Source of the DNA: a virus
Virus record (IMG/VR): IMGVR_UViG_3300025112_005126
Location: 1 to 54,122 of that record
Length of the DNA: 54,122 nucleotides
Direction: 5' to 3' (one strand)
The position numbers and the translations under genes were made by a program. Of the stretch, positions 14,580-54,122 are shown one piece after another. The notes beneath the pieces are model-generated. The model worked only from the letters and a program-made list of their open reading frames with translations, was not told the DNA's origin and did no database searches. Numbering within the stretch: position 1 is the stretch's first letter; each line of letters begins with the position of its first letter.

Positions 14580-14580
14580 A

Positions 14581-30649: not shown

Positions 30650-31294
30650 TTAGGAACATTTTAAATCTCTTACAAAATTATAAAATTCCTGTCTTGTAAG
30701 ATCAGTTTTATCTAAAAATGCTCCTGACATTCTAGCAGTTTTCATTGTACTGTCATGCTTAACACCTCTTACACAAGCACACATATGATTAGCTTCTACT
30801 AATACTGCTACACCATTATTTTCATCACATACTTCATCTATATGTGTATGTATTTGCATAGTTAAATTCTCTTGTACCTGTGGTCGTCTCGCAAACCATT
30901 CAACGATTCTATTTAATTTACTTAAGCCTATTACTTTACCATCTCTTCCAGGTATATATGCTACATGCGCAACGCCTATAAACGGTAAATGATGATGAGA
31001 GCAGAAAGAATGTACTTTAATATTACCTTGAAATACAATACCATCATACTTATCAATATTATCAAACGCAGTAATTTTCGGAGGCTCTGTATAGCATCCC
31101 TCTGCTAAGTCATTTACAAATGCTTTTGCTACTCTTTTAGGTGTATTCGAACTATTTGGATCGTTCCTCCAATCAAACCCTAAAGCATCCATATAACCTT
31201 CATATGCCTTTGCAGCATTATCGATAATATTGTCTTTTTCTTCTAGAGTCCGTGGTCGATTTTGATTAGCGTATTGAAGTAAATCCTCATTCAT
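30650..31294 (-). CDS. folE: GTP cyclohydrolase I FolE
   Basis: Converts GTP to 7,8-dihydroneopterin triphosphate, the first step to preQ0 (via QueD). Seen: [20 protein letters not shown] (zinc Cys and His), the GLSKLNRIV and [10 protein letters not shown] segments, and [12 protein letters not shown] with the second zinc Cys. I place the start at the second in-frame ATG (31294, [11 protein letters not shown]), giving 214 aa: the first ATG (31303) overlaps the TATAAT box, whereas 31294 lies 7 bases after it. Its 5' end and promoter are duplicated at 32248-32372. Confidence 0.93.
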
Positions 31295-31301
31295 ATAAAT
31301 C

Positions 31302-31329
31302 ATTATAATATAATTAACATATAAGTCAA
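31302..31329 (-). promoter_or_regulatory. Sigma70-like promoter of folE
   Basis: Minus-strand TTGACT (31329-31324), 16-base spacer, TATAAT (31307-31302), 7 bases to the ATG at 31294. The spacing predicts transcription starting at that ATG. It is divergent from the late box at 31333-31340. Confidence 0.65.
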
Positions 31330-31332
31330 CTT

Positions 31333-31340
31333 TATAAATA
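31333..31340 (+). promoter_or_regulatory. Late promoter box TATAAATA, array copy 1
   Basis: Exact T4 late octamer, 7 bases before the ATG at 31348. It heads the transcript carrying SGNH paralogue 1 and micro-protein 1. Confidence 0.6.
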
Positions 31341-31347
31341 TTAATAT

Positions 31348-32136
31348 ATGGAGTATACTATTCTGAACAACGGTTGTTCGTTTTCAGCACATTGGTCTCC
31401 TGATGATGCTAAGTTCATACCAGATCGTACGAGACCGAAAAATAAAAAGAGAAAGACACGGGGTGGTGTATGGGTATCATATTGCGACTTTATTCCGGGA
31501 AAAATATATAATATTGCTTATCCTGGTTCTGGTATCGAATCAATAAGAATACCTAGACTTATTAACGGTGAATCACCTTTTAAGAGGTATGAAGGAGATT
31601 TGTTGTCTGCAGACACTAATTTAACGCATTTTATTTATCAAATACCATCGTTTGGTCGTATGATACAGCCTGACTTTTTAGATCAATACAGTAAGGTTTA
31701 CTGGACGATACCTGATATATTAAAAAACCGGAAACGACTAATTCATAGTAAGCAGAAGATCTTCGAATTTGGTGATGGTAAGGCTCCGTGGAGAGATTTT
31801 ATAGAGGATGCACCGTACGTGGAGCACTACACGAACGAAGCATTAGCTGTAATTGATACAAATGTTATTATGGTTCGTAAAAAATGGCCTGATATTAAAA
31901 TTATATTTTTACGGTATACACATTCCGGAAGATATGATCAACTAGTTTGGGAGTTTAGTGAAAAATTTCATATGACACACTTAAGTGACTATTGCAATGA
32001 AAATAATATTACGTATATATGTGAAGATAATTTCCATACTGAGTGGTTTAAGAATAATCATTTAACCGGGGATAAGCGCCATCCCAATGAAGCTGGTGCT
32101 AAATTAATAGCAGATAAAATTAAGGAGTATTTATGA
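31348..32136 (+). CDS. SGNH-hydrolase-like paralogue 1
   Basis: First array member, 262 aa. Block I is NNGCSFS with the candidate nucleophile Ser11. A basic, Lys/Arg-rich insertion follows (about 15-45), then IAYPGSGI (block II-like). The centre has [10 protein letters not shown] but FGRMIQP in place of PxRQP. The end has D242-x2-H245 (DKRHPNEAG), the block V Asp-His pair, so the catalytic set looks complete. There is no signal peptide, so it acts inside the cell or on the virion. The final codons (IKEYL) also form AAGGAG for the next gene, which it overlaps by 4 bases. The reaction (deacetylase, esterase or acyltransferase) is not determinable. Confidence 0.75.
32122..32127 (+). promoter_or_regulatory. 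Shine-Dalgarno AAGGAG inside the IKEYL codons (micro-protein 1)
   Basis: The Lys-Glu codons at the end of paralogue 1 read AAGGAG, 5 bases before ATG 32133. The same site recurs before ATGs at 34036 (34025-34030), 34791 (34780-34785), 35594 (35580-35585), 37161 (37150-37155), 37811 (37797-37802) and 39561 (39550-39555). Before 36418 it is the weaker AAAGAG (36407-36412). Confidence 0.75.
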
Positions 32137-32243
32137 AGAAATTATGGTTTAAAATTAGACTTAGATACGCACAATTTATACAATGGTTTTCTCGCAAGAG
32201 AATGAAAGATGATGATAAGGATAATATTTACCCTTTTTGGTAG
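32133..32243 (+). CDS. Micro-protein 1 (36 aa, YPFW end)
   Basis: Short basic then acidic peptide: [18 protein letters not shown], a linker, then KDDDKDNIYPFW. It starts in the ATGA overlap with paralogue 1 and has AAGGAG 5 bases upstream. A second, clearly related peptide (39561-39668) follows paralogue 10, sharing RLRY/KLRY-x-QF-x-QW, the Asp run and the YPFW end. Conservation between the two copies is strong evidence that both are translated. Function unknown; an amphipathic helix with a C-terminal docking motif is plausible. Confidence 0.75.
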   Translation: MKKLWFKIRLRYAQFIQWFSRKRMKDDDKDNIYPFW

Positions 32244-32247
32244 TTGA

Positions 32248-32346
32248 TTACTTTGCAGCATTATCGATAATATTGTCTTTTTCTTCTAGAGTCCGTGGTC
32301 GATTTTGATTAGCGTATTGAAGTAAAACCTCGTTCATATGAATCAT
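32248..32346 (-). pseudogene. Truncated duplicate of the folE 5' end
   Basis: Encodes only the first 32 residues of FolE with a few changes (for example YMNED becomes HMNEV), then runs into a stop where the similarity ends. DNA at 32251-32350 is nearly identical to 31208-31307. The TTGATT-N16-TATAAT promoter is preserved. The residual peptide cannot have cyclohydrolase activity. It marks the edge of a duplication of the folE-promoter-SGNH junction. Confidence 0.85.
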
Positions 32347-32372
32347 TATAGTATACTAGACTCATAAATCAA
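32345..32372 (-). promoter_or_regulatory. Duplicated folE-type promoter
   Basis: Minus-strand TTGATT (32372-32367), 16-base spacer, TATAAT (32350-32345), still correctly spaced although only a folE remnant lies downstream. Transcription from it would run antisense into micro-protein 1 and paralogue 1. Confidence 0.5.
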
Positions 32373-32379
32373 CGGTTAA

Positions 32380-32387
32380 CATAAATA
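32380..32387 (+). promoter_or_regulatory. Late promoter box CATAAATA, array copy 2
   Basis: Late-type box 9 bases before ATG 32397. It is the diverged counterpart of the box at 31333-31340 within the duplicated folE/SGNH intergenic region. Confidence 0.5.
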
Positions 32388-32396
32388 TTTATTAAT

Positions 32397-33173
32397 ATGA
32401 TCATCTTAAACAATGGATGTTCTTTTTCGACGAGTCCATCATATTGTGAGTATTTGCCTGATTGCGTGTATAATATTGCTGATCGTGGTTCTGGTATTGA
32501 TGTAACACGGGTTAATGAATTTTTAAATTCTAATAAAACTAAAAATATAAATTTAACTCATTTTATCTGGCAAATACCATCTCCAACAAGACAACCATTA
32601 TGTAAGGATTATACAATAGATGATTTTTTTTCGGCTCCTATAGAAATAAAACAATATATCTTTAAAAAATATGGTAAAGTAACTCCGGGCAGGGGTAAAG
32701 ATAAAAATAGCTGGATAAAATGGATCAGTGAAGTATACGATATAGATTTTTTATGGGCAGTGTTAAAGTTCGTCTATAAAAAAACCGGAAAAAGTGGAAA
32801 AAGGTCTCCTATCAGTATGCAAGAAATACACGATATTATGGATCGTCGGGATTTATTTTACGAGAAAGCGATGAGAGCTATAAAATATAATATTGACCTT
32901 ATTCGTAGCAGATTTCCTGAAATTAAAATAATATTTCTACGATATGAAGAAACTAGATTACAGTTTATTGCGGAATTTCATAAAAAGTTTTATAAAGAAA
33001 CTGTGTCTAAATATTGTGATATAAACAATATTGTATATATTAATGAAAACAATTTTCATACTGAGTGGTTCAGGAAGAATAAACTGACATGGGATAAAAG
33101 ACATCCCAATAAAGCTGGTGCTAAACTTATAGCAGATAAAATAACCTATTCGAATTATAAATCAACGTATTAA
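32397..33173 (+). CDS. SGNH-hydrolase-like paralogue 2
   Basis: 258 aa. Block I NNGCSFS with Ser9, almost no loop after it, then YNIADRGSGIDV. LTHFIWQIPSPTRQP is typical. A long basic centre (about 85-155) precedes [10 protein letters not shown]. Block V D233-x2-H236 (DKRHPNKAG) is complete. Its C-terminus departs from the family (KITYSNYKSTY instead of KIKEYL), so it lacks the built-in Shine-Dalgarno; the next gene instead has its own late box. This suggests paralogue 2 ends a transcription unit or was joined here by recombination. Confidence 0.75.
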   Translation: MIILNNGCSFSTSPSYCEYLPDCVYNIADRGSGIDVTRVNEFLNSNKTKNINLTHFIWQIPSPTRQPLCKDYTIDDFFSAPIEIKQYIFKKYGKVTPGRGKDKNSWIKWISEVYDIDFLWAVLKFVYKKTGKSGKRSPISMQEIHDIMDRRDLFYEKAMRAIKYNIDLIRSRFPEIKIIFLRYEETRLQFIAEFHKKFYKETVSKYCDINNIVYINENNFHTEWFRKNKLTWDKRHPNKAGAKLIADKITYSNYKSTY

Positions 33174-33176
33174 ATA
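33169..33176 (+). promoter_or_regulatory. Late promoter box ATTAAATA, array copies 3-9
   Basis: Followed by ATTAT and ATG 33182, the exact spacing seen before 26770, 39687 and 42369. It would start a transcript for paralogues 3 to 9, which are joined by 1- to 4-base overlaps. The box lies across the stop codon of paralogue 2. Confidence 0.6.
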
Positions 33177-33181
33177 ATTAT

Positions 33182-34039
33182 ATGGCTACTGAGCGTCCCT
33201 GGTGGAAAGCTTTTCAAAATAATATAGCTAATTCCGATGACGATTTACCTGAAAGTGATAAAGTTTATAAACGATCACGTCTTCTAGGAGACATGCACTT
33301 TATCGAAAAGACTCCGGTATGTTTAGAGGTTATAAATCCTTCTGATAAAGAATATGTTATATTATGTGCTGGCTGCTCTTTTACGCACTGTCACAAAGGA
33401 CATGATGAGTATCCGTATGCCAGTATGTTACCTGGTCGATCGTTTAATATTGGAAAGCGCGGTATTGGTATTTGTACTAAATATTTTAGAATATTTTTTA
33501 AAAAACATCCAGATGTAAATTTAACACATGTCGTTTATCAAGTGCCCTGTCCAACGCGCCAACCTGTAGACTTAAATGATTATGAAGAAAATCATTTTAG
33601 ATCCACCCTGAAGAGGGACGACCTTAAATCGGTATGGATGCAGATATCTGGTTGTCGTTTAACGAAACGCCAGAATACCAGCTTGGAAGCTTTTGATAAA
33701 ATAGATCAATATTATAAAAAAGCTATGGATCAGGTTGATATTAATGTTAAATTAATTCGAAAAAAACAACCTAACGTGAAAATAATATTTTTACGCTATG
33801 AACATACTCAAAGGCCATTAATATATGAATTTAGCAAGAAGTTTTATAAAACCGCGTTAGCAGAGTATTGTAAGAAAAACAATATTAAATATATATATGA
33901 AGAAAATTTTAATACACAGTGGTTTAAATTTAACAATTATGGTGCGCTTGAAATCACCCGTAAGGGTGAAAAGCCCGGAGTTCATCCCAATAGAGCAGGA
34001 GCTAAATTGATAGCAGATAAAATAAAGGAGTATTTATGA
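33182..34039 (+). CDS. SGNH-like paralogue 3 (second subfamily, extended N-terminus)
   Basis: 285 aa with an extra N-terminal segment of about 58 residues (MATERPWWKAFQNN...) before block I CAGCSFTHCH (Ser66). Then YPYASMLPG, FNIGKRGIGI, LTHVVYQVPCPTRQP and VDLNDYEENHF, hallmarks of the second subfamily. The C-terminus has HPNRAG (H268) but Pro at the position of the block V Asp, so the Asp-His dyad is broken. The centre (DDLKSVWMQISGCRLTKRQN) is unlike other copies and relatively G+C-rich. It may be a non-catalytic binding member. Confidence 0.72.
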   Translation: MATERPWWKAFQNNIANSDDDLPESDKVYKRSRLLGDMHFIEKTPVCLEVINPSDKEYVILCAGCSFTHCHKGHDEYPYASMLPGRSFNIGKRGIGICTKYFRIFFKKHPDVNLTHVVYQVPCPTRQPVDLNDYEENHFRSTLKRDDLKSVWMQISGCRLTKRQNTSLEAFDKIDQYYKKAMDQVDINVKLIRKKQPNVKIIFLRYEHTQRPLIYEFSKKFYKTALAEYCKKNNIKYIYEENFNTQWFKFNNYGALEITRKGEKPGVHPNRAGAKLIADKIKEYL

Positions 34040-34794
34040 TGTATAATATATTATGCGCCGGTTGTTCTTTTACTCACGGTAATTTTAAAGCAATACGAGA
34101 TGGCTTCAAACCGGTTGTTGACACGCCCGATCACCGCGGTGGTGGCATGAAATGTAAATTTGGGCGAGAGGGGTGGTATCCGTATGCTAATTTTCTACCC
34201 GGGACAACTTGGAATATCGGGAGATGTGGTGGTGGTATTACTCCTAAATATTTTAAAAAATGGTTTTGGAGAAACAAAGAAGAAAAGCTAACACATGTTG
34301 TTTATCAAGTACCCAGCCCGGTTCGACAGCCTGTAGATTTAAATGATTTTAATGAAAACCATTTTTATCAGTGCCCTGCGCACTTCAAAGGCCATTACGA
34401 GAGCGCTGGCAGACGAAAGTCAGCAAATCCCAGCTTCCCAGAAACAGTATTTGTTGCATTAAGAGAATCTAAATTACAAGCTTTTGATAAAATAGATCAA
34501 TATCATGAAAAAGCTGTAGCCATGGTTGATATTAGTGTTAATTTAATTCGAAAAAAACAACCTAATGCAAAAATAATAATTTTACGTTATGAGGATACGA
34601 GAAGACCGTTACTGCGTGAATTTACTAAAGACTTTTATAAAATCATGCTAGCTGATTATTGTAAAGATAATGATATTTCATATATATATGAAGAAAATTT
34701 TAATACACAGTGGTTTAAAAAGAACAAATGTGGGCTTCATCCCAATGAAGCAGGTGCTAAATTGATAGCAGATAAAATAAAGGAGTATTTATGA
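34036..34794 (+). CDS. SGNH-like paralogue 4 (second subfamily)
   Basis: 252 aa. Starts in the ATGA overlap with paralogue 3, AAGGAG 5 bases upstream. Block I CAGCSFTHGN (Ser11), then a G+C-rich variable loop of about 30 residues (KPVVDTPDHRGGGMKC), WYPYANFLPG, WNIGRCGGGI, LTHVVYQVPSPVRQP. The centre holds a second variable piece (CPAHFKGHYESAGRRKS). Block V shows CGLHPNEAG: His235 kept, Asp missing. Close in its second half to paralogues 7 and 8. Confidence 0.74.
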   Translation: MMYNILCAGCSFTHGNFKAIRDGFKPVVDTPDHRGGGMKCKFGREGWYPYANFLPGTTWNIGRCGGGITPKYFKKWFWRNKEEKLTHVVYQVPSPVRQPVDLNDFNENHFYQCPAHFKGHYESAGRRKSANPSFPETVFVALRESKLQAFDKIDQYHEKAVAMVDISVNLIRKKQPNAKIIILRYEDTRRPLLREFTKDFYKIMLADYCKDNDISYIYEENFNTQWFKKNKCGLHPNEAGAKLIADKIKEYL

Positions 34795-35594
34795 TTATCT
34801 TAAACGATGGTTGCTCTTTTTCACGTAACCGAAAGGAAATCGTGCCGCCGGGCCGAAAGCGGCTCAATGGCCGCCGGGAATCGTATTGTGTGTTCTTACC
34901 CGATATGATAGACGCACATAATATTGCTCGAAGCGCCTCTGGTATTGAGAGTTGGGGTTTGACTAACTGGTTAAAACATAATAATAAGAACACAGCGGTA
35001 ACGCATTTTATTTATCAAATACCTTCCCCATCGCGACAGATTTTATGGCCCGAATTAAATGATGAAGATTTTTTAAAAGCTCCATATATCCAATCTTTTG
35101 ACCAATCAGGCCGTCATGGGACGTATATCTTATATTGGGACTGGATAATGTCACTAAAAGTATTATTAGAGAGAGGCGGTATCGGCCCAACCGGCGTGCC
35201 TTACGCTTCAGCCAAACATAAACTTAATACTAAAATGAACAAACTTAATGTACATAAGCTATTAGTAAAAGTCTTTGAACATAAAGAGAGATACTTAATA
35301 AAAGGTTTAATCGAAACCGAAAAAATTGTAAATCTTATACGTGAAGCCTATTCTGATATAAAAATTATATTTTTACGATACGAGGAATCCTCGCGTCCAT
35401 TAATTTATGAATTTTGTAAAGATTTTTATAAAAATATGTTACCAGATTATTGTAAGAAAAATGATATTACATATATATATGAAGAAAATTTTAATACAAA
35501 ATGGTTTAATGCAAATGGCTTATGCGCTGATGGGAGACATACCAATGAAGCAGGTGCTAAAGTAATAGCAGATAAAATAAAGGAGTATTTGTAA
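34791..35594 (+). CDS. SGNH-hydrolase-like paralogue 5
   Basis: 267 aa. Block I NDGCSFSRN with Ser9, followed by a very G+C-rich coding patch (about 34842-34880) giving an Arg/Pro-rich loop (EIVPPGRKRLNGRRES). Then [31 protein letters not shown]. The centre is long and hydrophobic. Block V D247-x2-H250 (DGRHTNEAG) is present, with Thr replacing Pro. Coupled to paralogue 4 by ATGA overlap. Complete catalytic set. Confidence 0.74.
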   Translation: MIILNDGCSFSRNRKEIVPPGRKRLNGRRESYCVFLPDMIDAHNIARSASGIESWGLTNWLKHNNKNTAVTHFIYQIPSPSRQILWPELNDEDFLKAPYIQSFDQSGRHGTYILYWDWIMSLKVLLERGGIGPTGVPYASAKHKLNTKMNKLNVHKLLVKVFEHKERYLIKGLIETEKIVNLIREAYSDIKIIFLRYEESSRPLIYEFCKDFYKNMLPDYCKKNDITYIYEENFNTKWFNANGLCADGRHTNEAGAKVIADKIKEYL

Positions 35595-36421
35595 TGGATA
35601 ATACGACAACTTTTGTACCTGGTGGTAATTGGGATTTTAATTTCAATAGTACTGATAAAGAGAATATAGAATATAAAATATTAAGCGCCGGATGCTCTTT
35701 TACAAAATGTGAGAAGCTTCCGGAAGGTAATAATTTTGGCGGATATTCTTATTGTGATTACTTACCGGGGAAAGTATACAACATTGGTGAACCTGGCGCT
35801 GGAATTACAAAACATTTAATAGAGAATTTTGTCCGAGAAAATGAAGGTATAGAATTAACACATTTTATCTATCAAGTACCATCACCGGCTCGCCAGCCTA
35901 TAGATTTAAATGAGCAAAGAGACTCACAGTTTCATATTCGAGAAAACATCCCGGAGAAAGAAATAATAACTCATGGGTACCAGGGTACAACATTAAATAA
36001 AAATAATATATGGAATACGTTAGTATTATTTTGCTCGGACAGAGAAACTGGTAGATGGAGAAAAATCGAATCTATAACCAGTAAACGTCTTACGGAAATT
36101 TTTACTAATCATGAAAAATATTTAAATAAAGCTATAGATATAGTTAATATTAATGTTAATTTAATTCGAGAGAGATACCCTAATATTAAAATAATATTTT
36201 TACGGTATGAAGTCAATACCATTCCGTTACTTAATGCATTTTGTAAAGATTGGTATAAGAATACTTTAAACGATTACTGTAAGCGAAAAAATATTCCATA
36301 TATCTATGAAGAAAATTTTAATACAAAATGGTTTAAAAATAACAATATGACAACGGATAGTGTGCATCCCGATAAAGAAGGTACTAGAATAATTGCAGAT
36401 AAAATAAAAGAGTATTTATGA
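35594..36421 (+). CDS. SGNH-hydrolase-like paralogue 6
   Basis: 275 aa, with a 30-residue N-terminal extension (MDNTTTFVPGGNWDFN) before block I SAGCSFTKC (Ser35). It mixes features of both subfamilies: GCSFT and DLNE after RQP as in the second, but SYCDYLPG, LTHFIYQVPS and an intact block V Asp-His (D255, H258; DSVHPDKEG) as in the first. Start overlaps the previous stop by one base (TAATG), with AAGGAG 8 bases upstream. Looks like an intermediate or mosaic member. Confidence 0.73.
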   Translation: MDNTTTFVPGGNWDFNFNSTDKENIEYKILSAGCSFTKCEKLPEGNNFGGYSYCDYLPGKVYNIGEPGAGITKHLIENFVRENEGIELTHFIYQVPSPARQPIDLNEQRDSQFHIRENIPEKEIITHGYQGTTLNKNNIWNTLVLFCSDRETGRWRKIESITSKRLTEIFTNHEKYLNKAIDIVNINVNLIRERYPNIKIIFLRYEVNTIPLLNAFCKDWYKNTLNDYCKRKNIPYIYEENFNTKWFKNNNMTTDSVHPDKEGTRIIADKIKEYL

Positions 36422-37164
36422 TATACAATATATTGTGCGCTGGGTGTTCTTTTACTCACGGAAATAAAAAATATCATCTTAACAATAAGCCGGCGGATTG
36501 GTATCCGTATGCTAATTTTCTACCTGGTCGTACGTATAATATTGGAAAATGTGGTCACGGTATTTCTCCTAAATATTTTAGGCTATTTTTTAAACAATAC
36601 AAAGAAGAAAAGCTAACACACGTTGTTTATCAAGTACCTAGCCCGATTCGACAGCCTGTAGATTTAAATGATTATGATGAAGATCATTTTAGACTTAGAG
36701 TTGGAGGAAGTGATAAGTATGATGCTGTAAACGGTTATACTTATATACATCAAGATGGTCAATTGGAGGAAGCAAGAATCAATGATGCTGTATGGCATCC
36801 AGGAAACAAACCAACAGTATATAGTCAATTAAGAGAATTCAACATACAGGTTTTTGATAAAAAAGATCAATATCTTGAAAAAGCTATAGATATAGTTAAT
36901 ATTAATGTTAAATTAATTAGAGAAAACCAACCTAATGCGAAAATAATATTTTTACGTTATGAGGATACAAGAAAACCGTTACTGTATGAATTTTGTGAAG
37001 ATTTCTATAAGATCACGTTAGCTGATTATTGTAAAGAAAACGATATTTCATATATATATGAAGAAAATTTTAATACAAAATGGTTTAAAAAGAACAAATA
37101 TGGAATCCATCCTAATAAACCAGGTGCTAAATTGATAGCAGATAAAATAAAGGAGCATTTATGA
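36418..37164 (+). CDS. SGNH-like paralogue 7 (second subfamily)
   Basis: 248 aa. Block I CAGCSFTHGN (Ser11), short loop, WYPYANFLPG, YNIGKCGHGI, LTHVVYQVPSPIRQP, VDLNDYDEDHF. Variable centre of about 45 residues. The second half (from EFNIQVFDKKDQYLEKA) is almost identical in DNA to paralogue 8. Block V is YGIHPNKPG: His231 present, Asp absent. Its Shine-Dalgarno is the weaker AAAGAG. Recent duplication or gene conversion with paralogue 8 is likely. Confidence 0.74.
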   Translation: MIYNILCAGCSFTHGNKKYHLNNKPADWYPYANFLPGRTYNIGKCGHGISPKYFRLFFKQYKEEKLTHVVYQVPSPIRQPVDLNDYDEDHFRLRVGGSDKYDAVNGYTYIHQDGQLEEARINDAVWHPGNKPTVYSQLREFNIQVFDKKDQYLEKAIDIVNINVKLIRENQPNAKIIFLRYEDTRKPLLYEFCEDFYKITLADYCKENDISYIYEENFNTKWFKKNKYGIHPNKPGAKLIADKIKEHL

Positions 37165-37811
37165 TGTATAATATATTATGCGCCGGGTGTTCATTTACTG
37201 ACGGTAATTTTAGAAAATTCGCAAAATCAGATTGGTCCGCTAGTCATTCGTATGTTACTTTCTTACCCGATAACCCTCATAATATCGGGAGCGCTGGGGT
37301 TGGTATTTCTCCTAAATTATTTAGAAAATTTTTTAATGAACACAAAGAAGAAAAGCTAACACATGTTGTTTATCAAGTACCATCCCCTTCACGTCAACCT
37401 ATAGATTTAGATGATTATAATGAAGATAATTTAGGTCAATATTGGCGTTGTTTTATATTTAAACGTAAGAGTCAAAAAAGAGAATTCAACATACAGGTTT
37501 TTGATAAAAAAGATCAATATCTTAAAAAAGCTATGGAGCTGGTTGATATCAATGTTAAATTAATTAGAGAAAACCAACCTAATGCGAAAATAATATTTTT
37601 ACGTTATGAGGATACGAGAAGACCTTTACTGTATGAATTTACTAAAGGTTTTTATAAGACCATGTTAGCTGATTATTGTAAAGAAAACGATATTTCATAT
37701 ATATATGAAGAAAATTTTAATACAAAATGGTTTTTCAATAACAAATATGGAATCCATCCTAATAAAGTAGGTGCAAAGTTAATAGCAGATAAAATAAAGG
37801 AGTATTTGTAA
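37161..37811 (+). CDS. SGNH-like paralogue 8 (shortest, second subfamily)
   Basis: 216 aa, the smallest copy: the variable centre is reduced to about 15 residues (GQYWRCFIFKRKSQK). Block I CAGCSFTDGN (Ser11), SYVTFLPD, HNIGSAGVGI, LTHVVYQVPSPSRQP. The last half nearly repeats paralogue 7. Block V YGIHPNKVG lacks the Asp (His199 kept). It shows how little of the centre is needed to keep the fold, and so maps the dispensable insertion. Confidence 0.74.
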   Translation: MMYNILCAGCSFTDGNFRKFAKSDWSASHSYVTFLPDNPHNIGSAGVGISPKLFRKFFNEHKEEKLTHVVYQVPSPSRQPIDLDDYNEDNLGQYWRCFIFKRKSQKREFNIQVFDKKDQYLKKAMELVDINVKLIRENQPNAKIIFLRYEDTRRPLLYEFTKGFYKTMLADYCKENDISYIYEENFNTKWFFNNKYGIHPNKVGAKLIADKIKEYL

Positions 37812-38629
37812 TGTATAATATATTATGCGCTGGTTGTTCATTTACGGCCGGGTGGAACCATACTAGCAATTTAGCTATTATTGATCGTCCTGTGGAGGAT
37901 CGGTCTAAGGTCAGTACTGATATTCCGTCAGACATTGGCACTAGTTTGATTCCCACAGATTATGTATACAGACACCCTAAGGATAAGTACGAAGTTTCGA
38001 TCGAAGTAAAGGATTTTGTACGAAACCCATATGTCTCTTATACTAATTATTTACCCGAGACAACATATAATATAGGCAGACCAGCTAGTGGTATTCAAAG
38101 TCAAGATATATCGAGATTTATTAAACGAAATAGAGATATACATTTAACTCATTTTATTTATCAAGTACCAAGTCCTGCTAGACAACCAAAACAATTAAAT
38201 CATCCTTATATGTGGCCTTTTTGTGGTCGGGAAAATGATATTCTTTGGTCTGCAGGTAAAAAAAATAGAACGGTATGGCGATTGTTAAAGGGAGGTAATA
38301 TAGATATATTTAAGAATCAACATTTATTTTTAAACAGAGCTCTACGTAAAGTTGATAACAATGTTAACATTATTCGACAACAACATCCTGACATAAAAAT
38401 TATATTTTTACGTTATGAAGAATCCCGACACCCGTTGATCGCTGAATTTTGTGAACCTTTTTATAAGGATATGTTACCACATTACTGTGAAGAAAATAAT
38501 ATTACGTATATATATGTAAATGAATTTAATACATTATTGTTCTACCGTGAGAATTTAACTATTGATAAAGTACATCCTAACATTAAAGGTGCAAAAATAA
38601 TTGCAAAAAGAATAAAGAAAGATTTATAA
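37811..38629 (+). CDS. SGNH-hydrolase-like paralogue 9
   Basis: 272 aa. Block I CAGCSFTAGW with Ser10, then the longest N-terminal variable loop (about 50 residues, with SNLAIIDRPVEDRSK). YVSYTNYLPE, YNIGRPASGI and LTHFIYQVPSPARQP follow. Block V D252-x2-H255 (DKVHPNIKG) is intact. The end differs (IAKRIKKDL), so it lacks AAGGAG, and the following copy has its own promoter box. Start is a TAATG overlap with paralogue 8. Confidence 0.73.
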   Translation: MYNILCAGCSFTAGWNHTSNLAIIDRPVEDRSKVSTDIPSDIGTSLIPTDYVYRHPKDKYEVSIEVKDFVRNPYVSYTNYLPETTYNIGRPASGIQSQDISRFIKRNRDIHLTHFIYQVPSPARQPKQLNHPYMWPFCGRENDILWSAGKKNRTVWRLLKGGNIDIFKNQHLFLNRALRKVDNNVNIIRQQHPDIKIIFLRYEESRHPLIAEFCEPFYKDMLPHYCEENNITYIYVNEFNTLLFYRENLTIDKVHPNIKGAKIIAKRIKKDL

Positions 38630-38635
38630 TAAATA
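38628..38635 (+). promoter_or_regulatory. Late promoter box AATAAATA, array copy 10
   Basis: Ends 5 bases before ATG 38641 (gap ATCGA-type, TCGAT), overlapping the stop region of paralogue 9. It would drive paralogue 10 and micro-protein 2, possibly running on into the genes beyond. Confidence 0.55.
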
Positions 38636-38640
38636 TCGAT

Positions 38641-39564
38641 ATGGTTATCTTAAACAATGGTTGTTCTTTTTCAGCTAAAAGCAAAATTAAATATGCTTTA
38701 AGTGGTGAAGGTAAACCCGGTGAAGGTCGCGTCCTACTCCGCAAAGATGGCAAAGTACGCCGGCATAAAGATTGGAACCTAATATCATATTGTGATTATT
38801 TACCAGGAGAAATACATAATATTGCTAAACACGGATCCGGTGTTGACGTAATACGGATTAAGACGTTTCTAGATTCTGTACACGAACGGTGGATTAAAAA
38901 AAATAAAGAATTAACGCATTTTATTTATCAAATTCCTCATCCCACTAGACAACCTATATTTGAAGAGCTAAAAGATGACGAAGAATTTTATAAAGCTACT
39001 TTACAAATTGATGAGGTTTGGGGTATTAAGGACGCACCATCTTACGTTGACCGAGCTGCTAAACACTCAACAGGTGATAGTGAACGGTTAACAGATGTGC
39101 TCAAGCTCCTAGGTCGGAGATTTAAGAGATTCGCGTTCGGTGAAAAATATATAGACACACCGTGGGATGAAATTCGAAAAAATGAGTATCTACAGCAAAA
39201 CTTTTTATGGCATCAAGTATGTAATGAAAATAAAATCTTCGGCCCGGATGAACGTGAAAGATATTTAAAGAAGGCACTTAATGGTGTAGACCAAAATGTT
39301 AATATGGTTCGTAATAAATGGCCAAATGTTAAAATTATATTTTTACGATATGAAGAGACTAAAATACCTTTAGTTTATGAGTATGGAAAAGATTGGTTTA
39401 AAAATACATTATCTAATTATTGCAAAAATAATAATATTACATATATATTTGAAGAGAACTTTAATACAAGATGGTTTCATGATAACGGTTTATGTGATGA
39501 TAAAAGACATGCCAATCACACCGGCGCTAAATTAATAGCAGATAAAATAAAGGAGCATTTATGA
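38641..39564 (+). CDS. SGNH-hydrolase-like paralogue 10 (longest)
   Basis: 307 aa. Block [11 protein letters not shown] (Ser9), a G+C-rich basic loop (GEGKPGEGRVLLRKDGK), [31 protein letters not shown]. Its centre is expanded to over 100 residues (LGRRFKRFAFGEKY and more). Block V D287-x2-H290 (DKRHANHTG) is intact. As with paralogue 1 it is followed in an ATGA overlap by a YPFW micro-protein, so copies 1 and 10 probably derive from a single SGNH + micro-protein unit. Confidence 0.75.
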   Translation: MVILNNGCSFSAKSKIKYALSGEGKPGEGRVLLRKDGKVRRHKDWNLISYCDYLPGEIHNIAKHGSGVDVIRIKTFLDSVHERWIKKNKELTHFIYQIPHPTRQPIFEELKDDEEFYKATLQIDEVWGIKDAPSYVDRAAKHSTGDSERLTDVLKLLGRRFKRFAFGEKYIDTPWDEIRKNEYLQQNFLWHQVCNENKIFGPDERERYLKKALNGVDQNVNMVRNKWPNVKIIFLRYEETKIPLVYEYGKDWFKNTLSNYCKNNNITYIFEENFNTRWFHDNGLCDDKRHANHTGAKLIADKIKEHL

Positions 39565-39668
39565 CATTTTTTTATAGAATAAAATTAAGATATCTTCAAT
39601 TCAAGCAATGGTTATTACGAAAGCTCGGAAAAGACGACGACGACGACAATACATATCCTTTCTGGTAA
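39561..39668 (+). CDS. Micro-protein 2 (35 aa, YPFW end)
   Basis: MTFFYRIKLRYLQFKQW, then a basic linker and KDDDDDNTYPFW. It has AAGGAG 5 bases upstream and overlaps paralogue 10 by 4 bases. Homologous to micro-protein 1 at 32133-32243: same order of basic amphipathic helix, acidic run and aromatic tail. Length is almost identical (35 versus 36). No known family comes to mind. Confidence 0.75.
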   Translation: MTFFYRIKLRYLQFKQWLLRKLGKDDDDDNTYPFW

Positions 39669-39673
39669 TTAAT

Positions 39674-39681
39674 TATAAATA
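39674..39681 (+). promoter_or_regulatory. Late promoter box TATAAATA
   Basis: Exact late octamer, followed by ATTAT and ATG 39687. The gap of 5 bases places the expected transcription start at the ATG itself. Confidence 0.62.
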
Positions 39682-39686
39682 ATTAT

Positions 39687-39863
39687 ATGAAATCTATTTT
39701 GTTGTGTGGTGGTAAAGCTTGTTGTCCGATGTTAGTACTACTTAAAGACAAAAAAACAATCCAAATTACAGATGATACAGGTAATACTGTTGAGATGGAT
39801 ATATCTCAAGCTAAATTAATTGATCAGGCTTTAAAAGATATTTTAAAGGAGGATAAATTATAA
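39687..39863 (+). CDS. Small Cys-containing protein, 58 aa
   Basis: MKSILLCGGKACCPMLVLL, then KKTIQITDDTGNTVEMD and a helical C-terminus. Three cysteines near the N-terminus (7, 12, 13) in a CGGKACCP motif might bind metal. The leaderless-type promoter is perfectly placed, and the end of the gene supplies AAAGGAGG for the next gene. I believe similar short CCP proteins occur in other marine T4-like phages but cannot name the family. Function unknown. Confidence 0.7.
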   Translation: MKSILLCGGKACCPMLVLLKDKKTIQITDDTGNTVEMDISQAKLIDQALKDILKEDKL

Positions 39864-40182: not shown

Positions 40183-40671
40183 ATGAAGTTTACTAGTACG
40201 AAGATTCTTGAACTCGGTAGCTGTGCTTTTCGACAACCAAATGCCAGTCATTCTCATTGTAGATTTTTACATGGTTATAGATTAACAGCTAAATTCTGGT
40301 TCGGTACTAATCAATTAGACGAGAACCATTGGGTTGTAGATTTCGGCGGCTTAAGCCGTCTTAAAAACATTTTAAAAGATCAGTTTGATCATACAGCTTG
40401 TATTGCGGCAGATGATCCTGCACTACCTATTTTTGAAGAATTACAAAAAGCAGATGCATGTGATTTAAGAGTAATGCCTAATGGAACAGGTATTGAGAGA
40501 ATCGCTGAATATTGTCATAATATTGCTAATGATGTTATAAGAGAGCAAACCGAAGATAGATGTTGGGTAGATAAAGTTGAAGTATTTGAACATGAAAATA
40601 ACTCTGCTATTTACACCGAAAATATGGTTACTACCATGAGATTTGCTGAGAACGCTGGAAGTATTTGTTAA
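40183..40671 (+). CDS. queD: 6-carboxytetrahydropterin synthase QueD
   Basis: Second preQ0 enzyme, turning dihydroneopterin triphosphate to 6-carboxytetrahydropterin. Seen: SHSHCRFLHGY (Cys26 the likely catalytic Cys; His30), VVDFGGLSRLK, the FDHTA pair and the PNGTGIERIAEY segment with Glu105. In usual QueD the zinc-binding motif is HGH; here it reads HGY, so one zinc His appears replaced by Tyr or supplied from the His-rich stretch before it. Length 162 aa is slightly above E. coli QueD. It has its own promoter. Confidence 0.88.
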   Translation: MKFTSTKILELGSCAFRQPNASHSHCRFLHGYRLTAKFWFGTNQLDENHWVVDFGGLSRLKNILKDQFDHTACIAADDPALPIFEELQKADACDLRVMPNGTGIERIAEYCHNIANDVIREQTEDRCWVDKVEVFEHENNSAIYTENMVTTMRFAENAGSIC

Positions 40672-40672
40672 A

Positions 40673-40858
40673 ATGGGTAAAGGAAGTAAAAGACGCACAG
40701 GAGAAGATACAAATAGTATTGTTACTAATTGGGATGAAATTGACTGGGATCATACGCTTAAGGCTGCTGATCAGTATTTAAAATCTACTAAAGAAGAAGC
40801 TGATAAAAAGAAAAATGAACGAAAAAGAATCAACGATAATGATCGCGGACGGGACTGA
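40673..40858 (+). CDS. Hypothetical protein between queD and queE, 61 aa
   Basis: Starts at MGKGSKRRTGED (ATG 40673), one base after the queD stop; an upstream in-frame ATG at 40643 lies within queD and is less likely. Very polar: basic ends and a central NWDEIDWDHTLKAADQYL segment. It overlaps queE by 44 bases. Being wedged between two preQ0 genes hints at a linked role, but no family is recognised. Confidence 0.6.
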   Translation: MGKGSKRRTGEDTNSIVTNWDEIDWDHTLKAADQYLKSTKEEADKKKNERKRINDNDRGRD

Positions 40859-41585
40859 GACAATATATCTATCAGACGATAAGATATTCTACACAGTAGA
40901 GGGAGAAGGTGAGTTTATAGGTTATCCCTCTGTATTCATGCGTCTTTCAATGTGTAATTTAACATGTCAAGGATTTGCTTCTGAAGATTCACCACATGGT
41001 TGTGATAGTTATATTTCTTGGAGTGTGAAAAATAAGCTTACTCTTAAAGAAATTTTTGATTTCTTTGAAAGTAGTGGATATAAAGATCATTTATACAATG
41101 GTGCTATATTAAAAATCACCGGCGGAGAGCCCTTAGTACAACAAAAGGCACTATTAAAGTTTTTAGAGTATATGGAGGTCGAATGGGGCTGGGTTCCTCG
41201 GATAGATTTTGAGACTAACGCAACAATTTTACCAGATCCAGAGTGGTTGAGAGTCGGTGCAACATTTACTACTTCTCCTAAGATGAGTAATAATGGAGAC
41301 CCGGAAGCTAGGCGATATAAACAACCGGTTTTAGATTGGCATTCTATAAATGGATCTGGTTTTAAGTTTGTTATTGATAAAGAGTCAGATATCGATGAAG
41401 TCTTTGGTAAATATATTACACCGTTTGATATTCCTACAGGTAGGGTATGGTTAATGCCGTGTTGTGGTAGCAGAGAAGAGCATATAGAGAAGGCTCCTAT
41501 GGTTGCCGAGCTAGCTAAGAGGTATAGGTTTAATTTTAGTCCTAGATTACATTTATTGATATGGGATATGGCCTTAAAAGTATAG
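40815..41585 (+). CDS. queE: 7-carboxy-7-deazaguanine synthase QueE (radical SAM)
   Basis: Radical-SAM enzyme making 7-carboxy-7-deazaguanine. N-terminal FYTVEGEGEFIGYPSVFMR is the QueE hallmark. The cluster cysteines are C47, C51 and C63, spaced C-x3-C-x11-C rather than the usual C-x3-C-x2-C, meaning a nine-residue insertion in the loop. KITGGEPLVQQ, FETNAT, FTTSPK and FKFVIDKE follow, and the C-terminal FNFSPRLHLLIWD. At 256 aa it is full length. It follows the 61-aa gene and precedes a P-loop kinase. Confidence 0.9.
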   Translation: MNEKESTIMIADGTETIYLSDDKIFYTVEGEGEFIGYPSVFMRLSMCNLTCQGFASEDSPHGCDSYISWSVKNKLTLKEIFDFFESSGYKDHLYNGAILKITGGEPLVQQKALLKFLEYMEVEWGWVPRIDFETNATILPDPEWLRVGATFTTSPKMSNNGDPEARRYKQPVLDWHSINGSGFKFVIDKESDIDEVFGKYITPFDIPTGRVWLMPCCGSREEHIEKAPMVAELAKRYRFNFSPRLHLLIWDMALKV

Positions 41586-49371: not shown

Positions 49372-50162
49372 TGATTTGGACAAATACATCTCTTTTTAAT
49401 TCCTTATTACCAAAGGATAAAGTTACACAAGACAAAAATCTAGCAACATCAATTATATTAGGAGCACCTCCTATAGATATAACTGAATTTCCTAATGTTG
49501 ATTTTGTTTTTCGGGCCGGTGTAGGTACTGATAATGTAAATTTTCCTTCGAATATACGAGTACAGTTTCCTTCTATGGAAACTAAAAATATTATTTACGA
49601 AGAAACGGCGAATTTTACTTGTTATTTAATATTTAAAATGTTATATGATAACATAGGTGATTTATCTTCATGGAGTAGTACAAGGAGAAACATTCTTACT
49701 AATAAAACTTTGTTAATAGTAGGATTAGGTAATATAGGACAAAGAGTTAAAGATAAAATGTCTTCCTTTATTGAAAATATTACAACATATGATATATTGA
49801 CTGATACATCCTTACCAGATTATAATAAAGCAGATATAGTTAGTCTTCATATACCTTATTGTCCTGAAAATAAAAATTTTATAAATAAAACTAATTTGGC
49901 CCAATTTAAAGATAATGCTATTTTAATTAATACTGCGCGAGGTCCTCTCGTAAATGAAAATGATCTTTATGAATGTTTAACACATACTAATATACGAGCT
50001 GCATTTGACGCTTTTTGGGTCGAGCCGTATAGAGGTAAGCTTAATGTATATGGTAACTCTAAATTTTTTATGACACCTCATATAGCGAGCTCTAGTATTG
50101 AATTTATTGAAAATTGTTATGAGGATTTTGAAGTTGCTCTGAGCAACCATGTCACAGTATGA
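49371..50162 (+). CDS. D-isomer-specific 2-hydroxyacid dehydrogenase-like
   Basis: 263 aa from ATG 49371, which overlaps the previous stop in TAATG; the in-frame ATG at 49344 lies inside the upstream gene and is rejected. Rossmann motif GLGNIGQRV (from 118), IVSLHIPYCPEN, INTARGPLVNE and MTPHIASSS (catalytic His) are typical of the PGDH/lactate dehydrogenase family. The N-terminal catalytic half is short. It may make or use a 2-keto/hydroxy acid feeding the sugar-acid genes that follow. Confidence 0.85.
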   Translation: MIWTNTSLFNSLLPKDKVTQDKNLATSIILGAPPIDITEFPNVDFVFRAGVGTDNVNFPSNIRVQFPSMETKNIIYEETANFTCYLIFKMLYDNIGDLSSWSSTRRNILTNKTLLIVGLGNIGQRVKDKMSSFIENITTYDILTDTSLPDYNKADIVSLHIPYCPENKNFINKTNLAQFKDNAILINTARGPLVNENDLYECLTHTNIRAAFDAFWVEPYRGKLNVYGNSKFFMTPHIASSSIEFIENCYEDFEVALSNHVTV

Positions 50163-50920
50163 AAGATGAACAATATTTTAATTTCTTAAAAGGAAAAAAA
50201 GCTATTATTATTGGTCCCGCTCAATATCTTACTACTGAGTCGTTCAGCGGGTTTGGTGAAAGCATAGATAAAGAATATGATATTGTAGTAAGATTAAATA
50301 GAGGAATGGAATTAACACAGCGCTATAAATCAAATATTGGCTCTAGAACAGACGTATTTTATAATTGTCTTATAGAGCATAAAGATAATGGCGGAATAAT
50401 AGATATTAATAACCTTAAAGATAATAACATACAGTGGCTGTGTACGATTCCAAATTCTACCATGAGAGGTAATTGCTATAGCAATGCATTACACCCGATG
50501 GTTAATCAAAACACTGTAAATTTAATAAAACAGAACTTTAATTTTCATGTGATGGATTTCAGATTATATGGAGAGTTAAATAAAGGAGTAGATTGTCGGA
50601 GTAATACAGGCTTCGCAGCAATATTTGATACACTATATCACGGTGTTGAGTCTCTTTTCGTAACTGGTTTTAGTTTTTATTTAGATGCGTTCGCGCCCGG
50701 GTATAAGGAAGGATGTGCAAGAGATGAAGATGAATTTGCTAAACAATGCTTCGCATCTAAACGCCATAATCAGGTAAATCAATGGATTTATGCTCGCAAA
50801 AATTTAAAAAATAATCCGAAAGTTATTTTAGACGATGTATTAACTAAAATTTTAAATTTAAAAACTCTTAATAGAGAGGATTTTAATGAAGAGACTCAAA
50901 ATCTATATAGTAACGTATAA
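50159..50920 (+). CDS. Sialyltransferase-like protein (GT29-type motifs)
   Basis: 253 aa. AIIIGPAQYL, IDKEYDIVVRLNRG and IGSRTDVFYN (about 15-70) correspond to sialylmotif L. RSNTGFAAIFDTLYHG with VESLFVTGFSFY (about 147-174) corresponds to sialylmotif S, and RHNQVNQWIY has a candidate catalytic His203. GT29 enzymes use CMP-sialic acid, and a CMP-sugar synthetase lies 0.9 kb downstream. No membrane anchor is present. True substrate could be another CMP-activated sugar. Confidence 0.75.
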   Translation: MKDEQYFNFLKGKKAIIIGPAQYLTTESFSGFGESIDKEYDIVVRLNRGMELTQRYKSNIGSRTDVFYNCLIEHKDNGGIIDINNLKDNNIQWLCTIPNSTMRGNCYSNALHPMVNQNTVNLIKQNFNFHVMDFRLYGELNKGVDCRSNTGFAAIFDTLYHGVESLFVTGFSFYLDAFAPGYKEGCARDEDEFAKQCFASKRHNQVNQWIYARKNLKNNPKVILDDVLTKILNLKTLNREDFNEETQNLYSNV

Positions 50921-52517: not shown

Positions 52518-53169
52518 TCCTATAATTACAGAGATACTATGTAACTCTACAATCGATGGAGTTGTTTTTGATCTCGAACACGGGTGCTTCAATAATGAGA
52601 CTTTATATACTTGTATTCAAGTATGTTTACTTAAAAATAAATTATGTTTTATTAGAGTAACCTGGTTAGATAAGACTGTTATTAGGATGAGTCTTGATGC
52701 TGGGGTATCTGGGGTCATATTTTCAACAGTACAGACCTATTATAAAGCTAAAGAGTATTATGATTATTGCTTTTATCCTCATAAAGGTAGCAGAGGTCAA
52801 GGATTAGTCAGAGAGAATGAGTGGGGTAATAGAGATTTTAAAAAACGTAATCCTATAGTTGTAGCTCAAATAGAAACACAACTCGGTCTTGATAATATAA
52901 GCATTATTTCGGAAGTAGATTTCGATTATTTTATGGTTGGGCCATATGATTTGTCTGCAAGCTTAGGTTGTGTTGGTGATTTCAATTCACCTCTATATAA
53001 AGCTGCTATAGAAAAGTTAAAATTAAAACTAGGTGATAAACTTGGATATCATTTAGTTAAAGACATTAAGGATCAATTTGAAGCTTACAAAAATTCAAAA
53101 TTTCTAGCCTTATCAATGGATACTCTCTTTATTATTGATGGCATAAAGAGTATTGAAAATTTTAAATGA
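52489..53169 (+). CDS. HpcH/HpaI family aldolase
   Basis: 226 aa TIM-barrel class II aldolase of the HpaI/2-dehydro-3-deoxyglucarate type, which joins or splits pyruvate and an aldehyde. Seen: GVVFDLEHGC, CFIRVTWLD (catalytic Arg in the family's R-V motif), GSRGQG, VAQIETQLGLDNI (metal Glu) and YFMVGPYDLSASLG (metal Asp). Next to a CMP-ulosonate synthetase, it may build the keto-deoxy acid backbone in place of a NeuB-type synthase. The short N-terminus overlaps the previous gene by 29 bases. Confidence 0.83.
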   Translation: MRLLWQQLPSPIITEILCNSTIDGVVFDLEHGCFNNETLYTCIQVCLLKNKLCFIRVTWLDKTVIRMSLDAGVSGVIFSTVQTYYKAKEYYDYCFYPHKGSRGQGLVRENEWGNRDFKKRNPIVVAQIETQLGLDNISIISEVDFDYFMVGPYDLSASLGCVGDFNSPLYKAAIEKLKLKLGDKLGYHLVKDIKDQFEAYKNSKFLALSMDTLFIIDGIKSIENFK

Positions 53170-53603
53170 TCTTAATATCTCATAGAGGTAATTTGACCGG
53201 TAAAAATGCTAAATTAGAAAACAAACCCCTTCAAATACAAAAAGTATTAGACTTAGGATTTCATTGTGAAATTGATGTTTGGTTTATAAACGGTGAATAT
53301 TTATTAGGTCATGATGAACCGAAAACTCATGTTAAAGAGTATATGATTGAGCATCCTAATTTGTGGTGTCATGCTAAAAATTTAGAAGCATTACAGGAAA
53401 TGTTAAAAAACAATAAGATACATTGCTTTTGGCATGAAACAGATCAATATACTATTACCTCTAAGCAATTTATTTGGACATTCCCCGGGAAGTACGCTTC
53501 AGACAATTGTATTATTGTAGATAATTCAAAAAATCCACCTAATTATAATTGTACGGGCGTTTGTTCTGATTATGTACAATTATATAAAACACATCATTTT
53601 TGA
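53166..53603 (+). CDS. Short glycerophosphodiester-phosphodiesterase-like protein
   Basis: 145 aa. LISHRGNLTGKN (catalytic His-Arg), GFHCEIDVWFINGEYLLGHDEP (E-x-D and HD metal/catalytic residues) are the GDPD hallmarks. Usual GDPDs are about 240 aa or more, so about half the barrel is missing, although the stop is followed by a well-placed next gene. Such short versions occur in capsule clusters. It could act on phosphodiester-linked glycan parts. Confidence 0.75.
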   Translation: MILISHRGNLTGKNAKLENKPLQIQKVLDLGFHCEIDVWFINGEYLLGHDEPKTHVKEYMIEHPNLWCHAKNLEALQEMLKNNKIHCFWHETDQYTITSKQFIWTFPGKYASDNCIIVDNSKNPPNYNCTGVCSDYVQLYKTHHF

Positions 53604-54122
53604 TTTAGATGGAGTATTAATAGATAGTAGAGATTTACACTATTATGCATTAAACGATGCTCTTCGTACTATTAGTGATTCGTATGTTATATCAAGAGAT
53701 GAACATCTTTCTTCATACGACGGTAAGTCAACGAAAACTAAACTCGCATTATTAACTGAACATAAGCAATTACCTGAAAGTGAATATGATAAAGTCTGGC
53801 AATTAAAGCAAACCTTTACTAGACAAAGACTTCAATCGATTGAAGAGAATTTAGAATTACAACGTTTATTTAAATTTTTAAAAGATAATAATTTAAAAAT
53901 TTCGATTGCTTCAAACGCTATACGGGAAACTGTATTAACATCTTTAGAGAGAGTAGGTGTATTAAAGTATTGTGATTATGTATTAACTAATGAAGATGTT
54001 TTTCTGCCCAAACCTAATGCAGAAATGTATATGAGATGCATGATCCATACTAAAACAAATCCAGACGAAACGGTAATAGTTGAAGATTCTCACACAGGGA
54101 GAAAAGGAGCTATAAGAAGTGG
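53572..54122 (+). CDS. HAD-superfamily phosphatase (cut by window end)
   Basis: Partial gene starting at ATG 53572, overlapping the GDPD-like gene by 32 bases: MYNYIKHIIFDLDGVLIDS with nucleophile Asp11 and acid Asp13. KISIASNAIRETVL (motif II, Ser/Thr) and VFLPKPNAEMY (motif III Lys), then VIVEDSHTG (motif IV) follow. The cap region suggests a beta-phosphoglucomutase or sugar-phosphatase type. The reading frame is open to the last base. It might dephosphorylate a sugar-acid phosphate before CMP activation. Confidence 0.85.
   Translation, partial: MYNYIKHIIFDLDGVLIDSRDLHYYALNDALRTISDSYVISRDEHLSSYDGKSTKTKLALLTEHKQLPESEYDKVWQLKQTFTRQRLQSIEENLELQRLFKFLKDNNLKISIASNAIRETVLTSLERVGVLKYCDYVLTNEDVFLPKPNAEMYMRCMIHTKTNPDETVIVEDSHTGRKGAIRS

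Follow-up and report, generated by a model that had tools for sequence, protein, structure and literature searches.

The virus record IMGVR_UViG_3300025112_005126, a linear 54-kb contig analyzed here over its full 54,122 nucleotides (the window), carries ten consecutive paralogous genes that span exactly positions 31348 to 39564 of the plus strand. We found that this array belongs to T4-like phages as an accessory island of variable copy number and that its products are, on predicted structures, SGNH-like by fold without being canonical SGNH proteins. The array keeps company with a microprotein that the first-pass annotation of this DNA had not noted. We regard it as a serious possibility, short of probable, that the array encodes acyl-ester enzymes that are made late, stay in the cytoplasm, carry interchangeable lids, and act on glycans.

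The ten open reading frames (ORFs), of 216 to 307 amino acids, are all intact. Their alignment contains 38 invariant columns, including GCSF, T-H-x3-Q-x-P, K-I-I-x-L-R-Y, and H-x4-G, and is highly variable between GCSF and the NIx block and again after the T-H-x3-Q-x-P block. The ORF list and the alignment thus bear out the run of ten paralogues that the first-pass annotation had described. The N- and C-terminal blocks that it had given as common to all copies are present but looser than claimed, with departures in copy 1 (IKIIFLRYT), copy 2 (ending in KITYSNYKSTY), copy 5 (HTNEAG), copy 6 (HPDKEG), and copy 10 (HANHTG). Junctions between genes are mostly ATGA or TAATG overlaps, the only exceptions being gaps of 260, 8, and 11 bp; the 260-bp gap 3' of copy 1 is occupied by a 36-amino-acid ORF and a truncated folE 5' end. 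The array is real and not an assembly artifact, since it recurs in independent contigs: G001 holds all ten copies, G002 holds copies 1 to 6 and the start of copy 7, the divergent 132-kb phage contig G005 harbors orthologues of copies 3 to 10 in the same order, and G008 harbors six orthologues.

Searches with hidden Markov models of SGNH families returned sub-threshold matches only. No array copy passed a curated family cutoff (best, Lipase_GDSL, E value of 6e-4, 20.5 bits versus a gathering threshold of 23.6), and the family members of related phages likewise remained under the Pfam Lipase_GDSL and Lipase_GDSL_2 gathering cutoffs. NCBIfam gave nothing useful for the array. Structure prediction of two copies was positive. 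The AlphaFold2 (AF2) models of copies 7 and 10 display a three-layer alpha/beta/alpha SGNH fold and match several SGNH esterases with a Foldseek probability of 1.00. The PDB matches of the copy 7 model are the acetyl xylan esterase Est2A, a rhamnogalacturonan acetylesterase, EstL5, and PAF-AH, and those of the copy 10 model are EstL5 and PatB, so that SGNH esterases and transferases stand at the top for both, in support of the fold proposed earlier. The core of the copy 7 model mostly exceeds a predicted local distance difference test (pLDDT) score of 90.

At the level of the active site, the block I nucleophile serine lies in a GCS motif that is invariant in 35 of 35 diverse family sequences. 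The block II glycine (G48 of copy 7; block II was assigned by position) is invariant among the same 35 sequences. The block V histidine is also invariant, and serine and histidine are kept together in every complete family sequence. Of the two SGNH motifs originally proposed, block I holds, and D-x2-H is found in 6 of the 10 copies (1, 2, 5, 6, 9, and 10) and fails in the other four, which all fall within one clade of the family tree. Hydropathy revealed neither a transmembrane helix nor a signal peptide in the ten copies, and the proteins are thus presumably cytoplasmic or released at lysis. Compared with SGNH hydrolases such as Est2A (CE2), rhamnogalacturonan acetylesterase (CE12), and PatB, the array proteins share the predicted fold, the block I GxSF serine, the block II glycine, and the block V histidine, but differ in lacking a block III asparagine and a signal peptide, in scoring below the Pfam cutoff, and in being arranged in a phage in tandem sets of up to ten. 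It is unusual for a phage to maintain ten paralogues that retain catalytic residues.

The first-pass annotation had also suggested that the family comprises several specificities, and this is in line with a conserved core whose loops following blocks I and III vary, the post-block-III loop evolving fastest. Relative to G005, the ratio of nonsynonymous to synonymous substitution rates (dN/dS) was 0.47 for the array, 0.88 for the post-block-III loop, and 0.39 for the C-terminal core, against 0.06 to 0.36 for flanking genes. Among near-identical population contigs, the array showed 20 substitution sites in the 19.8 kb compared, about half of them silent, as well as a 30-bp deletion and a tract of about 500 bp in copy 6 that is only 83% identical; the flanks showed 33 sites in 61.1 kb, 22 of them in the tract from 52993 to 54105, where the glycan cluster ends. 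The array ranks among a small number of recombining patches. It had seemed to be the sole polymorphic stretch when short flanks gave zero differences, but the 33 sites in longer flanks make it enriched rather than unique. Adaptive hypermutation was rejected as well, since the half-silent substitutions fit an import of diverged alleles better.

In the relatives that carry the array in this slot, it sits between folE and queD/queE. The first-pass annotation had called for a survey of copy number in related phages; covering contigs around folE and a deoxynucleoside-kinase-like gene, all of which may be incomplete records, this survey found 0, 1, 2, 6, 8, or 10 copies across uncultured T4-like phages. 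The slot is empty in many of them, including L084, whose flanking folE and replication genes are 97 to 99% identical. One copy is present in L011 and L020; two in L016, L095/L096, L103, and G007, where they are oppositely oriented; six in G008; eight in G005; and ten in the window. An apparent three in L102 proved to be two genes, one of them an SGNH-like gene broken by a frame break (positions 1330 to 2179), the counterpart of which is intact in G015. In G009 and G004 the slot is empty and a single copy lies elsewhere, in G009 amid glycosyltransferase genes, and no family member was found on contigs G017, G019, and G022 (75 to 116 kb).

Since G005, G008, and G009 encode a gp23-type major capsid protein (PF07068) and a contractile sheath (PF17482), genes that lie outside the window, they are T4-like myoviruses. 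The relatives are contigs of 115 to 201 kb, so that the compact phage genome assumed at first reading does not apply. Their nearest listed isolate gp23 proteins are cyanophage sequences of about 31 to 32% identity, and tRNAs gave no clue to the host. We found no relatives in isolate phages by tblastn of copies 2, 7, and 10 and none in bacteria in a scan of GTDB genomes.

The history of the island can be partly read from its sequence. A tree of 35 sequences pairs eight of the window copies with their G005 counterparts, and for six copies there is a counterpart in G008. Because orthologues of individual copies from three phages group one to one, the duplications are older than the split of the window phage, G005, and G008, and the copies are old, specialized, and separately maintained. 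The same tree ruled out a recent amplification. Hybrid genes formed by exchange of N- and C-terminal halves were also discarded, since trees of the two halves agree on the orthologue groups and conflict, with weak support, over copies 5 and 6.

Two scars remain between array genes. Scar 1, between copies 1 and 2, gives a 142-bp local alignment to positions 31208 to 31345 (score of 100 versus a shuffle maximum of 15), of which the first 76 bp are identical. Scar 2, between copies 2 and 3, is identical at 37 of 41 bp to the folE-array intergenic DNA of L055 (G005), with a score of 31 versus a shuffle maximum of 15. In G005 the array opens with the orthologue of copy 3, and the odd C terminus of copy 2 is a read-through of scar 2. 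In the simplest account, an eight-copy, G005-like island gained two more modules on the folE side. The island would grow through recombination at its folE-proximal edge, each gain depositing a piece of folE-upstream DNA, and would lose copies by deletion, yielding copy numbers of 0 to 10. The empty slot of G004 ends in what, read by eye, appear to be the last codons of the microprotein, and this looks like a deletion remnant. In L105, near position 10712 (minus strand), the empty slot holds a remnant that resembles the last codons of the microprotein and is likely a deletion scar. Copies can be traced as they are gained and lost at this slot among close relatives, and the recombination scars can still be read.

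The microprotein occurs twice in the window, where its ORFs overlap the stop codons of copies 1 and 10, and homologues of 34 to 39 amino acids are found in the islands examined, including those of the distant G009, G004, and G010, while none were found in empty slots. An SGNH gene lies immediately 5' of it everywhere but in L019/L020, in which the two are separated by a 192-amino-acid ORF on the reverse strand. A scan of IMG/VR turned up 21 contigs that encode the microprotein; 20 of these show SGNH genes, and the remaining one ends beside the microprotein. Its C terminus reads N(I/T/N)YPF(W/M), with an invariant tyrosine fourth from the end. Since synonymous divergence (pS, 0.26 to 0.52) was well above nonsynonymous divergence (pN, 0.05 to 0.10) in five of the six pairs compared, namely, the more diverged ones, the microprotein is a real gene under purifying selection. 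It contains no transmembrane helix (maximum 19-residue hydropathy of 0.11), and an amphipathic helix was discounted because its helical moment was no better than that of shuffled sequences. It had no match in the two family libraries run. The constant company of SGNH genes and microprotein offers a concrete handle on mechanism.

A possible parallel is the DltX-DltD and PatA-PatB relay, in which an MBOAT protein, a tyrosine shuttle peptide, and an SGNH protein cooperate; the acyl-shuttle C terminus of PatA is FIYANF, and DltX and PatA share the shuttle hexapeptide (PMC12148441). The phage set likewise combines SGNH proteins with a microprotein whose tyrosine is in register and which usually ends in an aromatic residue (NIYPFW versus FIYANF). 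It differs in that the microprotein lacks the first phenylalanine of the FxYxxF hexapeptide and any transmembrane helix, that the proteins are apparently cytoplasmic, and that no MBOAT or AT3 partner was detected, with no match to PF03062 or PF01757 in seven phage records that may be incomplete (the host may supply one). We treat the resemblance as a lead only. A soluble acyl shuttle, in which the C-terminal tyrosine would be acylated by a host or unrecognized enzyme and would serve in turn up to ten SGNH transferases on different glycan positions, seems very improbable to us; if true, it would amount to a phage-borne, modular version of the DltX-DltD/PatA-PatB relay.

Expression of the array late in infection, as supposed in the first-pass annotation, agrees with T4-late-type motifs upstream of it. 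The element TATAAATA stands 7 nucleotides 5' of copy 1, and in three contigs 14 of its 58 occurrences lie at most 40 nucleotides upstream of ORFs versus 1.1 expected, an approximate enrichment since the three contigs are related and the counts are not independent. In G005, one TATAAATA precedes gp23, and a variant, AATAAATA, which is enriched too, stands before the first array gene. Late transcription of the array may be inferred from these motifs. The second TATAAATA of the window lies just 5' of an ORF of 58 amino acids (MKSILLCGGKACCP..., positions 39687 to 39860) that is conserved in many relatives and that adjoins the folE promoter in empty slots. A late-promoter-like element also occurs directly 5' of an RmlA-like sugar nucleotidyltransferase gene (named by eye) at position 46255 of G005 and 93870 of G008, which suggests late glycan synthesis in these two phages.

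Downstream of the array lies a glycan cluster of glycosyltransferases, methyltransferases, a GXM/IRX15-type gene, and a PseF/NeuA-like CMP-sugar (CMP-nonulosonate) synthetase, and in G009-type phages the single SGNH copy resides inside a glycosyltransferase cluster. Together with the fold neighbors, these contexts point to a glycan substrate. We propose that ten cytoplasmic SGNH-fold proteins, each with an acyl-ester-type center (Ser-His with or without Asp) beneath a fast-evolving lid, would be expressed from a T4-type late promoter along with the conserved microprotein, which may be their common partner or adaptor. The copies would remove or transfer acyl groups, most likely acetyl, at distinct sites on a glycan or its precursor in the infected cell, so that a host-surface or virion glycan would be retouched late in infection.

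Several observations weigh against this proposal. The third strand does not end in a conserved block III asparagine, as judged on sequence and secondary structure rather than on superposed coordinates, and Q-x-P-(S/C/H)-P is found there instead. The block V aspartate is lost in copies 3 (PGVH), 4 (CGLH), 7 (YGIH), and 8 (YGIH). The template modeling scores of copy 7 are moderate (0.36 to 0.52 by query), and its insert at residues 93 to 128 is modeled at low confidence (pLDDT mostly <50). The late promoter was recognized solely by its match to a consensus. Finally, the slot of L084 is empty although its glycan-cluster proteins are mostly 86 to 99% identical, so that array and cluster are not strictly linked; the glycan tailoring suggested at first reading thus draws weak support from the neighboring cluster and from G009, tempered by L084. 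Both active-site departures have precedents in the SGNH superfamily, where loss of the block V aspartate and non-asparagine oxyanion holes are known from CE2, SsEst, SASA, PatB1, and PC-esterases (PMC9487903), and catalysis by the array proteins is therefore plausible.

The same departures would also suit proteins that have kept the SGNH fold for binding or as a scaffold, in or on the virion, each for a different surface sugar, with catalysis partly or wholly lost. The late motif is common to structural genes, and SGNH domains of tail spikes are among the nearest matches of the copy 7 model in a viral structure library. We consider this unlikely, since serine and histidine are invariant in all complete family sequences, which is unexpected after catalytic loss. 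Tail-spike SGNH/GDSL domains, such as those of Pectobacterium phages PP99 and PPWS4, similarly place an SGNH fold in a phage protein; the array proteins differ in being stand-alone and tandemly expanded, without a trimerization or fiber part, and distant from tail genes (in G005, some 40 kb separate the array from the genes for gp23 and the sheath). The virion-associated binding proteins that the first-pass annotation had offered as a second option thus found no support.

A variable repertoire of late counter-defense or host-takeover proteins, in which the SGNH fold is a scaffold and each copy neutralizes a different host factor, is less likely still. PADLOC gave nothing useful for the array, no defense-system model was matched convincingly, the catalytic residues are retained, and late expression is ill suited to counter-defense at entry, even though a slot holding 0 to 10 copies, patches of allelic difference, and an elevated dN/dS are typical of arms-race genes. 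We give marginally less weight again to a largely neutral accretion, by which recombination at a promoter-rich boundary accumulates copies of little function: the scars of repeated joining, the presence/absence polymorphism, and the deletion remnant in G004 speak for it, but none of the ten frames is broken, dN/dS stays under 1, and orthologues and most of their order persist across the divergence of the window phage, G005, and G008. A role of the array proteins in the modification of DNA with 7-deazaguanine, which the fixed position of the island between preQ0 pathway genes (folE and queD/queE) might suggest, is hardly credible, since many phages with these genes have an empty slot and the single copies of G009 and G004 lie elsewhere, that of G009 among glycosyltransferase genes.

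If the array encodes glycan-active enzymes, as we favor, one phage lineage would hold an exchangeable surface-editing set, which would matter for host range and superinfection among ocean phages. The SGNH fold and the presence of glycan clusters in marine T4-like phages are already known. Such a cluster was reported beside phoH in P-SSM2 (PMC3037559), and the clusters have been proposed to alter the host surface (PMC7029224). The glycan cluster of the window, in a T4-like phage and also adjoining phoH, resembles these glycosyltransferase/lipopolysaccharide clusters of cyanomyophages and pelagimyophages; it differs from them in that the text of the two papers gave no SGNH/GDSL array or microprotein. 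We found no tandem set with a microprotein, no slot of 0 to 10 copies, and no readable growth scars of this kind in the literature searched, the isolate-phage collection, or the family libraries used.

Table 1. Positions of the array genes and associated features in the window
Feature	Position	Strand	Remarks
folE (GTP cyclohydrolase I)	30650..31303	-	Left slot boundary; Pfam PF01227, E 5e-49; left neighbor in all slot islands
TATAAATA, T4-late-promoter-like element	31333..31340	+	7 nt 5' of copy 1
SGNH-like copy 1	31348..32136	+	Type A; D-x2-H present
Microprotein A	32133..32243	+	36 aa; overlaps copy 1 stop
Scar 1	32251..32392	-	Truncated copy of folE 5' end and upstream region
SGNH-like copy 2	32397..33173	+	Type A; D-x2-H present; C terminus extends into scar 2
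Scar 2	33141..33181	+	folE-array intergenic DNA as in L055 (G005)
SGNH-like copy 3	33182..34039	+	Type B; without block V Asp
SGNH-like copy 4	34036..34794	+	Type B; without block V Asp
SGNH-like copy 5	34791..35594	+	Type A; D-x2-H present
SGNH-like copy 6	35594..36421	+	Type B; D-x2-H present; ~500-bp tract divergent in G002
SGNH-like copy 7	36418..37164	+	Type B; without block V Asp; AF2 pLDDT 82, predicted template modeling score (pTM) 0.81
SGNH-like copy 8	37161..37811	+	Type B; without block V Asp; shortest copy
SGNH-like copy 9	37811..38629	+	Type B; D-x2-H present
SGNH-like copy 10	38641..39564	+	Type A; D-x2-H present; longest copy; AF2 pLDDT 73, pTM 0.74
Microprotein B	39561..39668	+	35 aa, MTFFYRIKLRYLQFKQWLLRKLGKDDDDDNTYPFW; overlaps copy 10 stop
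Second TATAAATA	39674..39681	+	Before 58-aa ORF
queD-like (PTPS)	40183..40671	+	Right slot boundary; Pfam PF01242, E 9e-16

The ORF at positions 50159 to 50920 looks by eye like a Glycosyltransferase-29 protein (GKKAIIIGPA and VTGFSF) and adjoins the PseF/NeuA-like gene at 51816; Pfam gave no match for it, and its only PDB sequence match was an m7GpppX diphosphatase (3e-4). The slot also holds other cargo in some relatives, namely, a sulfotransferase-like gene in L057 (8427 to 9089, minus strand) and a P-loop-kinase-like gene in L020 (3243 to 3818, minus strand), both named by eye. Genes of the 7-deazaguanine pathway lie in the window at 13941 to 16195, 30650 to 31303, and 40183 to 41585 and encode QueC, FolE, QueD-like, QueE-like, GATase_6, and IMPDH/GMPR-like proteins, perhaps for DNA modification.

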